From positions 3,946,001 through 4,010,000 of the forward strand of contig NZ_CP015612.1 of the NCBI RefSeq assembly GCF_002138415.1: a DNA stretch of 64,000 bases, in the 5' to 3' direction. This DNA is from Stenotrophomonas maltophilia (GTDB lineage: Bacteria; Pseudomonadota; Gammaproteobacteria; Xanthomonadales; Xanthomonadaceae). Each line of letters starts with the position of its first letter. Within the stretch, counting starts at the first letter, position 1. Under the pieces are notes generated by a model. It was not told the DNA's origin, made no database searches, and saw only the letters and a list, made by a program, of their open reading frames with translations. Shown one piece after another: positions 14,989-18,579 of the stretch. Position numbers and translations under genes: made by a program.

Positions 14989-16068
14989 CTATCCCCCGTG
15001 CACGGGCCGGTGCCCACGCACCGCCATCACCAGTCCGATGCCGGCCAGCAACGAGACCGCCGATGTCCCGCCATAGCTGATCAACGGCATCGGAATGCCC
15101 ACCACCGGCAGCAGGCCGGAAATCATTCCGCCGTTCACCAGCACGTAGACGAAGAACGCCAGCCCCAGGCTGCCAGCCAGCAACCGTGCATGCGTGTCGC
15201 GCGCGTGCACTGCGATCCACAGGCAGCGCCCGACCACGAACAGATACAGCGCGAACAGCGTCGCCACACCGATCCAGCCGAATTCCTCGGCCAGCACCGA
15301 AAACGCGAAGTCGGTCGTGTACTCGGGCAGGAAATCCAGTGTGGCCTGGGTGCCCTGCCCCCAGCCGCGCCCCTGCCAGCCACCAGAACCGATCGCGATG
15401 CGCGACTGCAGGATGTTCCAGCCGGTGCCAAGCGGGTCTGCTGCCGGGTCGAGGAAGGTCAGTACACGATCCTTCTGGTACTGCCGCAACAGGCCGAACC
15501 ACGCCAGTGGTGCGGCCACCGCCAGCCCTGCCGCACCCGTCGCCACCCAGCCCCAGTGCAGGCCTGCCAGCAACAACGCGAACACGCCACTGGCAGTGAC
15601 CAAGGTGGCGGTGCCGAGGTTGGGCTGCATCAGGATCAGCACGGCGGGAACGCCGATCAGCACTGCGGCCGTCAGCACCGTGCGCGGTGACGGTGGCAGC
15701 GGTTGCCGGTGCAGGTACCAGGCCATCATCAACGGCAGGCTGAGCTTGAGCAGCTCGGAGGGCTGCAGGTAGAAGACGCCGAGGTTGAGCCAGCGCTGCC
15801 CGTACTTGCCGGTGCCGATCACATACACCGCCATCAGCGGCAGCATCGACAATGCATACAACGCAGGCGTCCAAGCGCGCAGGCGCAGCAGGGAGACCCG
15901 CGACAGCAACCACATCGCCGCCAGACCACCGGCAAAGCGCGCCGCCTGCCCGGCCACTGGTCCGGACACGCTGTGCAGCACCGCCAGACCGGCGGCCATC
16001 AGGATCAACAGCGCGACCAGCAACGGCAGATCGATCGTGCGCACCGCCTCACGGCAGCCGCCAAGCAT
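14989..16068 (-). CDS. RodA/SEDS glycosyltransferase paralogue
   Basis: SEDS-family integral membrane protein, probably a peptidoglycan glycosyltransferase partnering with a class B PBP. 359 residues from ATG 16068; an ATG at 16137 would add 23 residues but lies against a repeat with no ribosome site. About ten membrane segments; the essential-Asp loop (YTTDFAFSVLAEEFGW) and the family signature NGGMISGLLPVVGIPMPLIS are intact. Strongly similar in protein and DNA to rodA at 17467, so the two are tandem duplicates separated by an IS110 element. It ends in VHGG, two residues short of its twin, and its TAG stop sits against the inverted-repeat island, suggesting the extreme 3' end was replaced. 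Whether it is expressed is unclear, as it is now isolated from the mre operon promoter. Confidence 0.85.
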   Translation of the reverse strand: MLGGCREAVRTIDLPLLVALLILMAAGLAVLHSVSGPVAGQAARFAGGLAAMWLLSRVSLLRLRAWTPALYALSMLPLMAVYVIGTGKYGQRWLNLGVFYLQPSELLKLSLPLMMAWYLHRQPLPPSPRTVLTAAVLIGVPAVLILMQPNLGTATLVTASGVFALLLAGLHWGWVATGAAGLAVAAPLAWFGLLRQYQKDRVLTFLDPAADPLGTGWNILQSRIAIGSGGWQGRGWGQGTQATLDFLPEYTTDFAFSVLAEEFGWIGVATLFALYLFVVGRCLWIAVHARDTHARLLAGSLGLAFFVYVLVNGGMISGLLPVVGIPMPLISYGGTSAVSLLAGIGLVMAVRGHRPVHGG

Positions 16069-16138
16069 TCGTTTCCATTCCACGCGGGCCACGGTAGCAA
16101 CGGGCGCTTGCGTGAAGCTGTCAGGCTGCTTCTGCATT

Positions 16139-16204
16139 TGTAGAGCCGAGCCATGCTCGACTGCCTTTCGTACAGTGTATGCAGGCCCTGAGCCGAGCAT
16201 GGCT
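16139..16204. repeat. GTAGAGCCGAGC-type palindromic repeat, left part (split by the IS110 element)
   Basis: TGTAGAGCCGAGCCATGCTC starts at 16139 and an inverted half-unit, AGCCGAGCATGGCT, ends at 16204. The missing remainder, CGGCTCTACAG, is found at 17405-17415 on the far side of the IS element. Rejoined, the sequence AGCCGAGCATGG-CT-CGGCTCTACAG equals the intact unit at 55875-55899. Confidence 0.85.
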
Positions 16205-16424
16205 TGTATGTTCCTTCCGGCTCCTACGAGGTATGTAGGAGCCAGGGTGGAGGGACCGTCAACATGATATCTGCGGGTAGCAGCCGACAGACGAGCCGAG
16301 CGATCCCCATCCCGCACCTTAACGTCGATAAAGGATCTAGCGGCCTTTGAGGACCGCCGATGTAGGCAAGCCAACGTGGTGCGGTACCACCCCAGCCCCT
16401 CAACAATAGCTGGGAGTTGTGCAG
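16205..16424 (+). ncRNA. candidate IS110 bridge RNA leader
   Basis: Leader of the IS110 element. Two consecutive loops can be drawn. Second loop: AGGATCT at 16332-16338 equals the element's right end (AGGATCT, 17398-17404), then a hairpin GCGGCC/GGaCCGC (16340-16357), then GTAGGCAAG (16362-16370), which pairs with 8 of 9 bases (G-T wobbles counted) of the left end CTTGTATGT. This is the layout of a donor-binding loop (left guide, stem, right guide). First loop: a hairpin near 16271-16286 followed by GAGCCGAG at 16293-16300, exactly complementary to the right target CTCGGCTC. The left target guide is not convincing (ACATG at 16262-16266 only). Limits of the transcript are not determined; covariance and RNA evidence are lacking. 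Confidence 0.6.
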
Positions 16425-17387
16425 ATGTCAGATCGTCACGCTGTCGGTATCGATACCGATTCAAGGACCCTGGTGGTGGCGTGCCACGGCACCAAGGGCA
16501 GCATCCGAATCGCCAATTCAGCCTCGGCCATCAACAAATGGCTGTCCAGCCTGCCCGCGAAGTCCCGTATTGGCGTTGAGGCAACCAACCGCTACCACGA
16601 GCTTGTGGTTCACGCTGCCCAGAAGGCCGATCACGCCGTCTTCGTGCTCAATCCTCGCGATATCAAGCACTACGCCAAGGGCGTGGCCTGCCGCGGCAAG
16701 ACCGACTCCGGCGATGCCCAGGTCATTGCGCGCTACATCGCCAAAGAGGCCGACAATCTGCACGAGCATGTCGCTCGCTCGCCCGAGCAGGAGCGGCTGC
16801 ACGTGCTGCTCCAGCAACGTGACAGTCTGGTCCGGAGCAAGGCGAAGTTGAATCTCTCTCTGGGCGCGGGGGCGTCGGAGTCCGCCCTCTTTGGGCGCAT
16901 TTTCAGTAGCCTGAAAGAGGCCATTGCCATGCTGGACCAGCAGATTCAGCAGCTGTGTCGCAGCGGCCAACAGCGCGACCTGTACCGGCGGATCATGACC
17001 ATCCCCGGGATCGGGCCGACGGTGGCTGCCTTCGTCACCCATCACATCACCCGCTGGCCGCTGGCCAACTCCGACGCTTGGATCGCCTGCACCGGTCTGG
17101 ATCCGCGACCCAACGAGTCCGGCGCACGGATCGGCCGACGCCGATTGTCCAAACGAGGCAATGCCAGCCTGCGCCAGATCCTCTACATGGCCGCCATGGG
17201 CCTGACCCGATCCAAAGGCGGCAAGCCTCTCTACCTCGCCATCCGCGAGCGCGGACACAGCAGCACCGCCAGCTTCAACATCCTGGCCAGAAAGCTGGCC
17301 AAGATCGCCTGGGGCGTCTTCAAGAGCGGCAAGGATTTCGATCCCGCCATGCTGAAGGTGGGTCAAACCTGCTTCCAGCAGGCTTGA
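16425..17387 (+). CDS. IS110-family DEDD recombinase (transposase)
   Basis: 320 residues. N-terminal RuvC-like DEDD domain: VGIDTDSRTLVVAC (first Asp), GVEATNRYH (Glu), then KTDSGDAQVIARY with the paired acidic residues; C-terminal Transposase_20 domain with IPGIGPTVAAFVTHHI and a Ser-containing segment, SKRGNASLRQILYMAAMG, where IS110 enzymes carry the catalytic Ser. Coiled-coil-like region (about 105-175) between them. Start ATG 16425 was chosen because GGGAG lies 8 bp upstream; a GTG at 16419 is too close to it. The frame is intact, so the element could be active. Such enzymes recombine donor and target DNA guided by the element-encoded bridge RNA. Confidence 0.95.
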   Translation: MSDRHAVGIDTDSRTLVVACHGTKGSIRIANSASAINKWLSSLPAKSRIGVEATNRYHELVVHAAQKADHAVFVLNPRDIKHYAKGVACRGKTDSGDAQVIARYIAKEADNLHEHVARSPEQERLHVLLQQRDSLVRSKAKLNLSLGAGASESALFGRIFSSLKEAIAMLDQQIQQLCRSGQQRDLYRRIMTIPGIGPTVAAFVTHHITRWPLANSDAWIACTGLDPRPNESGARIGRRRLSKRGNASLRQILYMAAMGLTRSKGGKPLYLAIRERGHSSTASFNILARKLAKIAWGVFKSGKDFDPAMLKVGQTCFQQA

Positions 17388-17404
17388 CCGCGAACATAGG
17401 ATCT

Positions 17405-17415
17405 CGGCTCTACAG
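17405..17415. repeat. right remnant of the repeat split by the IS110 element
   Basis: CGGCTCTACAG, completing the palindromic unit whose left part ends at 16204. Confidence 0.75.
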
Positions 17416-17466: not shown

Positions 17467-18579
17467 CTACCCGTAGCCGCCGTGTACTGGATTGTGGCTG
17501 CGTACCGCCATCACCAAGCCGAAGCCGGCCAGCAGTGACACCGCCGACGTACCGCCGTAGCTGATCAGCGGCATCGGCACGCCCACCACCGGCAGCAGGC
17601 CCGAAATCATCCCGCCGTTCACCAGGACATAGACGAAGAACGCCAGGCCGGTAGCGCCGGCCAGCAGGCGCGAATAGGAATCGCGCGACTGGCTGGCAAT
17701 CCACAGGCAGCGCCCGATCACCACCAGATACAGCGCCAGCACGGTGGCCACGCCGATCCAGCCGAATTCCTCGCTCAGCACCGAGAACGCGAAGTCGGTG
17801 GTCTGCTCGGGAATGAAGTTCAGGTGCGACTGCGAGCCCTCGCCCCAGCCCTTGCCATCGAAGCCGCCGGAGCCGATCGCGATCTTCGACTGGATGATGT
17901 TCCAGCCGGCACCCAGCGCATCCATCTCCGGGTCCAGGAACATCATGATGCGGTCCTTCTGGTACGGCCGCAGCAGCCAGAACCAGGCCACCGGTGCGAC
18001 CGCGGTCACGCCGCCTACGCCCAGGCCAACCCACCACCACGGCAGGCCGGCCAGCAGCAGCACGAACACGCCACTGGCGGCGATCAGCACACCGGTACCG
18101 AAGTCGGGCTGCAACATCACCAGACCGGTTGGCACGCCGATGATGACCAGGGCCACGAGCACGGTGTTGAAACGCGGCGGCAGCGGCATCTTGTGCAGGT
18201 ACCAGGCCACCATCATCGGCAGGCTGACCTTCAGCAGTTCGGCCGGCTGCAGGTAGAAGAACTTCAGGTCCAGCCACTGCCGCCCGTATTTGCCGGTGCC
18301 GAGCACGAATACCGCCAGCAACGGAATCATCGAGATCGCGTAGATCATCGGCGTGGCCGAACGGATGCGCAGGATCGGCACCCGCGAGATACCCCACAGC
18401 GCGGCCATGCCCACCGCGAATCGCGCGCCCTGGGCCATCACCAGACCATCGCCACCGGCGCTCTTCAAGGTGGCCAGACCGATCACCATCAACGCGCCCA
18501 GCGCCAGGCACAACACCCAGTCCAGCGTGCTGAAGAAGCGGCGCAGCATGTCGCCGGCCCAGCGCAGGAATACTTTCAT
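17467..18579 (-). CDS. rodA: rod-shape-determining peptidoglycan glycosyltransferase RodA
   Basis: SEDS polymerase of the elongasome; polymerises lipid II into glycan strands for lateral wall growth with PBP2 as its transpeptidase partner. 370 residues, ten membrane segments. The functional-Asp loop QTTDFAFSVLSEEFGW and the signature NGGMISGLLPVVGVPMPLIS are present. Start 18579 overlaps the mrdA stop by 4 bp. This copy retains the operon position and is the likely principal RodA; the paralogue is 1.4 kb downstream beyond the IS110 element. Confidence 0.96.
   Translation of the reverse strand: MKVFLRWAGDMLRRFFSTLDWVLCLALGALMVIGLATLKSAGGDGLVMAQGARFAVGMAALWGISRVPILRIRSATPMIYAISMIPLLAVFVLGTGKYGRQWLDLKFFYLQPAELLKVSLPMMVAWYLHKMPLPPRFNTVLVALVIIGVPTGLVMLQPDFGTGVLIAASGVFVLLLAGLPWWWVGLGVGGVTAVAPVAWFWLLRPYQKDRIMMFLDPEMDALGAGWNIIQSKIAIGSGGFDGKGWGEGSQSHLNFIPEQTTDFAFSVLSEEFGWIGVATVLALYLVVIGRCLWIASQSRDSYSRLLAGATGLAFFVYVLVNGGMISGLLPVVGVPMPLISYGGTSAVSLLAGFGLVMAVRSHNPVHGGYG

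Follow-up and report, generated by a model that had tools for sequence, protein, structure and literature searches.

The window, by which we mean the whole 64-kb stretch of Stenotrophomonas maltophilia DNA that was analysed, carries an IS110-group insertion element at 16205 to 17404 (features lie on the forward strand unless stated otherwise). The element is 1200 bp long counting one CT core, and three identical copies of it occupy three sites in the 4.67-Mb genome, all within the same type of palindrome, ..GCCGAGCATGG(G)-CT-[element]-CT-CGGCTCTAC.. The dinucleotide CT flanks both sides of all three copies, as a 2-bp core with no longer target duplication. In the window the left half of the target lies at 16190 to 16204 (GAGCCGAGCATGG plus the core CT at 16203 to 16204) and the right half at 17403 to 17413 (the core CT plus CGGCTCTAC). 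Compared with the Smal1 REP, for which PMC2817692 gives TGTAGAGCCGAGCCCATGCTCGGCT, the target palindrome is a Smal1-type REP interrupted at its CT core. At the syntenic place in a relative, locus L174 of genome G046, the element is absent and two uninterrupted REPs are found, each with a single CT.

Two minus-strand genes, at about 14989 to 16137 and 17467 to 18579, surround the element and are presumably RodA/FtsW-like. They share 80% DNA identity over one matched 217-bp stretch, and the pair is apparently a tandem duplication.

The recombinase gene (16425 to 17387) starts at an ATG at 16425 or a GTG at 16419, leaving a non-coding leader of 220 or 214 bp, respectively. Its product, of 320-322 amino acids, has the domains DEDD_Tnp_IS110 (PF01548) and Transposase_20 (PF02371). 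Among 11 recombinase proteins E53, D95, D98 and S233 are invariant and D11 is nearly invariant, the catalytic roles of these residues being taken from PMC11208158; the recombinase of IS621 (8wt6) is matched by profile A2 at E 4.9e-46. With a predicted RuvC-type DEDD domain, a Transposase_20 domain with its putative catalytic serine, an upstream leader and a 2-bp core, the element falls into the IS621-like group of the IS110 family. The IS1111 family is marked by subterminal inverted repeats and by a downstream non-coding region; the long non-coding region here is upstream, which speaks somewhat against membership of IS1111.

Relatives and conservation of the leader

Counting the element's own genome, the protein has a relative at E 1e-40 in 8 of 91 Stenotrophomonas genomes, the leader in 12 and the right end in 11. 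Wider draws gave 3 matching genomes of 395 from the family at E 1e-50, all Stenotrophomonas (five candidates scored per genome), 16 of 370 from the class at E 1e-25, 3 of the 20 genomes around G809 at E 1e-40, and 3 of 397 from the phylum at E 1e-60 (again five scored per genome), of which one was new. The best 120 of 915 matches of a protein search included a 277-member cluster at 89% identity that is named S. maltophilia IS110 family transposase. A plasmid DNA search gave no match, a pattern scan of viral contigs found nothing, and the relatives from plasmid and phage protein searches were all below 60% identity among the matches listed. Inoviruses and Thermus phages (records among H61-H78) carry IS110-like transposases with about 27-30% identity to the element's protein.

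Several copies are irregular. In two G067 copies (L089, L090) the leader spans only about 130 bp and the right end about 120 bp, a third one there (L012) is interrupted by a run of N, and L025 in G025 has a second partial leader in a rearranged locus and was retained in the counts; these are either real rearrangements or assembly gaps. L066 in G038 is a remnant left end, in which the start TGTATGTTCCT is doubled and the second half of the leader is unrelated; its left guide ACGAGCAUGG matches the flank CGAGCATGG across 9 nt.

The leaders were compared in an alignment (A1) of 16 sequences whose recombinases are 31-92% identical to that of the window, and they align throughout their length. Left out of the alignments were the distant IS110 loci L043-L047, L050, L053-L055, L131 and L132, as well as the remnant L066. 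RNAalifold returned 33 pairs, 18 of them with compensatory change on both sides. In this consensus fold 91.9% of the cells were paired, against 77.1% after shuffling and at most 41.5% after sliding, and the covariation score was 0.451, against 0.193 and at most 0.114, although the structure came from the scored sequences themselves and the comparison with slid versions is biased in its favour. Pairs changed on both sides make up 6 of 8 in the 5' stem-loop of the RNA (helix 1, 16219 to 16243), 5 of 6 in the hairpin between the two target guides (helix 5, 16271 to 16290) and 3 of 7 in the hairpin between the donor guides (helix 7, 16340 to 16357), the last of which had been proposed in the original prediction and is now backed by compensatory changes. 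An outer donor stem suggested by the sequence (16312-16318 with 16378-16384) was absent from the RNAalifold result and was not counted. Conservation was used in place of single-sequence folding, since the latter is only mildly ahead of shuffled leaders (z -1.93).

A covariance model (R1) was built from ten leaders, none from Stenotrophomonas. Scoring the leader with such a model had been named as a check in the original prediction, and R1 matched it from end to end of the model at 16240 to 16391 with 71.9 bits and E 7.4e-12 (its E-values are rough). This was the sole match in the 64-kb window at E up to 10. R1 also finds L138, a locus absent from the model, and gave no match at E 1 on nine loci of other IS110 groups (L043, L044, L046, L047, L053-L055, L131, L132). 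No Rfam family reached its gathering score within the window. Judged by alignment and model, the leader shares ancestry, in both sequence and structure, with IS110 leaders outside the genus.

Guide segments, insertion sites and the circle junction

Each 8-mer of the aligned leaders was compared, in both senses, with the insertion sites of 13 lineages (A1 minus the near-identical G079, G015 and G008), giving 426 tests per side, and scores were set against 3,000 permutations of the sites, which take no account of shared ancestry. On the right side the best position, antisense to the site, was GAGCCGAG at 16293 to 16300, with 91 of 104 bases paired (next 69), z 4.5 (next 3.85) and none of the 3,000 permutations as good. 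On the left side it was ACAUGAUA at 16262 to 16269, in the same sense as the site, with 82 of 104 (next position 70), z 5.1 (next 3.6) and again none of 3,000. One further left-target position and four further right-target positions, with raw pairing of 47-64, also beat all permutations, which indicates that kinship inflates the scores; the two target guides are singled out by ranking first on both raw pairing and z. That GAGCCGAG is exactly complementary to the site's right half, CTCGGCTC (17403 to 17410), had been recognised beforehand; the octamer occurs in 0.7% of 5,000 shuffled leaders, and the scan picks the same place. The left target guide had been described beforehand as poorly matched; it is now placed at 16262 to 16269 and is indeed loose in the REP-targeting group. 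A register in which the left guide has its core at the CU of 16271-16272 was rejected, as it mismatches, by inspection, the sites of relatives.

The guides were also tested directly, the right one in 15 lineages (G013 and G992 added) and the left one in 14, G992 lying at a contig end with no left flank; G681 and G583 are near copies. Where a lineage has several sites, the best-pairing site was scored, and the permutations were treated likewise. For the right guide 113 bases were paired in 15 lineages against 79.5 expected, which none of 100,000 permutations equalled, and with one lineage per distinct right guide (10) one of 100,000 did. For the left guide across nine non-REP lineages the figures were 21 of 100,000 over 9 nt and 201 of 100,000 over 7 nt. 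The scan of all positions is the fairer test, since the register of the direct test was picked after the data had been seen. Right guides and sites that go together include GUAGGAG with CTCCTAC, GUGGGAG with CTCCCAC, CGAUGAG with CTCATCG and GUCUGAG with CTCAGAC, and GUUCUGAG pairs with CTCGGAAT through two wobbles; the exception is G486a, whose right guide has an internal mismatch and pairs at 6 of 8. Two copies within one genome carry the left guides UUCCCUGGC and UUCCUUGGC, which match TTCCCTGGC and TTCCTTGGC. Covariation of guides and sites across relatives, whose absence was to have counted against the original prediction, is found for both target guides. By these comparisons the putative target guides track the insertion sites, strongly for the right guide and, for the left guide, strongly only across lineages.

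Within the REP-targeting group the right guide differs by one base between two sets of elements. Window-type and G013 leaders read GAGCCGAG, and those of G025 and G067 read GAGUCGAG. All 26 right flanks of seven window-type genomes and G013 are CTCGGCT, and all 19 of G025 and G067 are CTCGACT; guide and flank were paired by genome, on different contigs, for G046 (7), G013 (9) and two G079 flanks, two of the three G079 copies having their left and right ends on different contigs. Seven more right flanks without a read guide, six of G034 (right guide unread) and one of G015, are CTCGACT. Both types are present in G015, each adjoining its own arm. Insertions lie in CTCGACT in 12 of 12 cases in G025 and 7 of 7 in G067, though both arms occur there: CTCGGCT makes up 27 of 100 listed tail-side sites in G025 and 17 of 50 in G067, counted by eye. 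The joint chance of these two results is about 0.001 given the site shares among the sites listed. The eighth base also points to the right guide. There the head side of the REP offers C, a partner for the guide's G, and the tail side offers G; of 51 distinct insertions, 45 use the head side (P 9e-9 against 1:1), the common flank of G008 and G078 being counted once. In three genomes head and tail sites are comparable in number (206 vs 250, 136 vs 151 and 106 vs 159), though the tail pattern admits either type of arm and the head pattern a single type.

The left guide is looser. One and the same window-type left guide goes with both ATGG and ATGGG loops, matching 6 of 9 and 2 of 9 bases in a fixed register, and the G013 left guide matches 2-3 of 9. 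The left loops found with the G025 guide are AAG (4), ATGG (5), CATG (2) and CAG (1), and the 100 listed G025 sites contain 36 AAG and 41 ATGG by eye, so that insertion use is about background. The G067 guide GCAAGC goes with AAG loops in 7 of 7 cases, against 32 of 50 listed sites (by eye; P about 0.04), a preference that lends weak support to a function of the left guide. Left guides end in C-A-U before the hairpin in 7 of 14 lineages and in U-U in five, and that of the window ends in U-A-U. A target that differs while the guide does not had been named as evidence against guiding. Such a case does occur left of the core, where a single guide is found with loops that vary in length; to the right, among the 45 Stenotrophomonas right flanks with a read guide, none was seen over the 7 nt counted from the core. 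In the REP-targeting subgroup the 8-nt right guide thus appears to make most of the choice, and the left guide appears to tolerate varied loop length.

The second half of the leader matches the element's own ends. The left donor guide, AAGGAUCU at 16331 to 16338, is in the same sense as the right end AGGAT-CT, which it matches as the best position of the leader (91 of 104). The repetition of the right end (17398 to 17404) by AGGATCT at 16332 to 16338, previously pointed out, is above chance, since this heptamer occurs in 0.84% of 5,000 shuffled leaders; it is also present at eight other places on the forward strand of the 64-kb window. Different right ends (AGGAT, AGAAT and AGAAC types) go with correspondingly different left donor guides, but this covariation rests on few changes because the ends hardly vary, and the left end TGTATG is invariant in the 16 leaders. 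The right donor half (16203 to 16209) consists of the core CT and the left end TGTAT, seven letters identical to the right donor of IS621 (PMC11208158). The putative right donor guide, GUAGGCAAG at 16362 to 16370, sits where that of IS621 does and places GCAAG opposite CTTGT, GCAAG being conserved in 15 of the 16 leaders. The original prediction had counted 8 of 9 pairs between GTAGGCAAG at 16362 to 16370 and the left end, and this count holds (5 Watson-Crick, 3 wobble). Its evidential value does not: 78% of shuffled leaders contain a 9-mer with at least 8 of 9 bases paired to the left end, and four further 9-mers of the leader itself reach 8 or 9 of 9. The ungapped scan of all positions did not recover the right donor guide either. 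Contiguous pairing was therefore rejected as evidence, and the assignment of this guide, whose pairing is at chance, rests on homology to IS621.

When the ends are joined, they give TTGACC-17 nt-TATGTT. The -35-like TTGACC (17384 to 17389, 5 of 6 consensus bases) overlaps the stop codon of the recombinase and is promoter-like in the circular form only; the -10-like TATGTT (16207 to 16212, 4 of 6) completes the putative junction promoter. The junction -35 matches the consensus at 5 of 6 or better in 9 of 14 elements, some of them near copies, against 0.5% of shuffled ends, and 13 integrated copies with enough flank have 0-3 matches at the -35. A promoter at the circle junction was reported for IS621 (PMC11208160), and the joined ends here have the sequence match expected of a rebuilt promoter.

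The own genome also contains a second IS110 element, 1224 bp long, in three copies (L053, L054 and L055; contig C1 at about 639217, 2699722 and 15861), with 28% protein identity to the first. Like the window element it targets a REP, has a CT core and carries four guide-like segments in the same order (CTCGGCTCT, AAAGTAGA, ACGGTATCT and CACAAG). Unlike it, the second element goes into the base of the REP arm that the window element uses (..CTCGGCT-CT / CT-ACA) and has a 9-nt left guide, CTCGGCTCT, and a short right guide, GUAG. One REP family serves two elements of the same genome with bridge-RNA-like leaders.

Proposed mechanism and its alternatives

Very probably the leader specifies an IS621-type bridge RNA, likely to act through an excision circle. 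Element limits, insertion site, covariation of guides with sites, conserved structure and the promoter-like junction are established by comparison of sequences; transcription, recombinase binding and strand exchange we infer from IS621, and the mechanism would be that of IS621. The recombinase would excise the element as a circle, whose joined ends would build the promoter TTGACC-17-TATGTT that is missing from the integrated copy, and for this reason the circle is proposed as the main source of the RNA. The bridge RNA would then bind the recombinase. Its first loop would pair with both strands of a Smal1-type REP, the bottom strand being read by the left guide (16262-16269) and the top strand by the right guide (16293-16300). 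The second loop would pair with the joined ends of the element through the left (16331-16338) and right (16362-16370) donor guides, so that strands could be exchanged at the shared CT. A bridge RNA with a target guide set for a Stenotrophomonas palindromic repeat was the reading of the original prediction, and leader homology and guide-site covariation both support it. The window leader can be annotated as a putative bridge-RNA gene with fair confidence.

REPs are structured DNA, and it was suggested in 2006 that some transposases might recognise them as regulators do palindromic sites (PMC1525189). The protein alone might accordingly read the REP hairpin, the matches in the leader being coincidence or REP debris, but guides also follow sites that are not Smal1 (CTCCTAC, CTCCCAC, CTCATCG, CTCGGAAT, CTCAGAC) and keep the same leader positions within a conserved RNA fold, and we consider this explanation highly improbable. 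An RNA that guides target choice alone, with the protein reading the ends as in seekRNA-type action, would agree with the chance-level pairing of the right donor guide, and the near-invariant ends leave the donor guides little variation to show; it is nevertheless unlikely in view of the conserved second loop with its own hairpin and of a left donor guide that outscores all other leader positions and varies in step with the right end.

A sub-case of the bridge-RNA reading, whose probability overlaps with it, holds that only the right target guide works, the left one being a relic among the REP-targeting elements. Tolerance of loop length and the background-like use of AAG and ATGG in G025 speak for it, but the left guide covaries across the nine non-REP lineages (21 and 201 of 100,000) and GCAAGC in G067 goes with AAG loops in 7 of 7 cases against 32 of 50 listed sites, so that we find a relic left guide rather doubtful. 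Within the bridge-RNA reading, targeting led by the right guide is plausible, though somewhat less likely than not: its 8 nt would fix the insertion point in one arm of the hairpin repeat, the left guide would accept loops of differing length out of register, and, as REP alleles and right guides differ by matching single bases, REP families and the elements that parasitise them may track each other.

Relation to known systems and significance

Insertion of IS110 elements into REPs (PMC1525189), bridge RNA (PMC11208160, PMC11208158) and seekRNA (PMC11187229) are already known. As described in PMC11208160 and PMC11208158, IS621 shares with the window element a recombinase with DEDD and serine residues, a leader RNA (here predicted) with a 5' stem-loop and two loops, the order of the left target, right target, left donor and right donor guides with their senses, the CT core, a REP target, the circle-junction promoter and the right donor CTTGTAT (dC8 to dT14, PMC11208158). 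The two differ in that the target is a Stenotrophomonas Smal1 REP here and an E. coli REP for IS621, the right target guide has 8 nt here against 4 (extended 7) in IS621, and the left target guide is looser here. The C-A-U end of the left guide in 7 of 14 lineages resembles the donor loop of IS621 (C130, linker A131-U132) and not its target loop (PMC11208158).

In the seekRNAs of IS1111/IS110 elements a non-coding region likewise matches both target strands, and natural re-direction through a change of guide was described for ISEc11/ISXne4 (PMC11187229). Unlike these, the leader here has a second loop, for the donor, with a match to the end of the element, in keeping with the bridge model. ISPpu9, ISPpu10 and ISPa11 are also IS110 elements inside REPs, with 2-bp direct repeats reported for ISPpu9 and ISPpu10, but their hosts and REPs differ from those of the window element (PMC1525189). 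ISStma4, ISStma6 and ISStma7 are named IS110 elements of S. maltophilia (PMC13296070), and the window element, taken in the original prediction as undescribed, might be one of them. Among open-licence papers, searches for bridge RNA or for REP or palindromic IS110 insertion in Stenotrophomonas returned no title on this element.

The value of the element lies in its clean natural switch of guide and target together with the apparent bias towards the right guide. Related elements that differ by one matching base are guide-target pairs made by nature, suited to testing the rules of bridge RNA, and two of them (G025, G067) live in genomes holding both target alleles. A bridge system may owe most of its specificity to the right guide, and this would bear on the use of such RNAs as tools.
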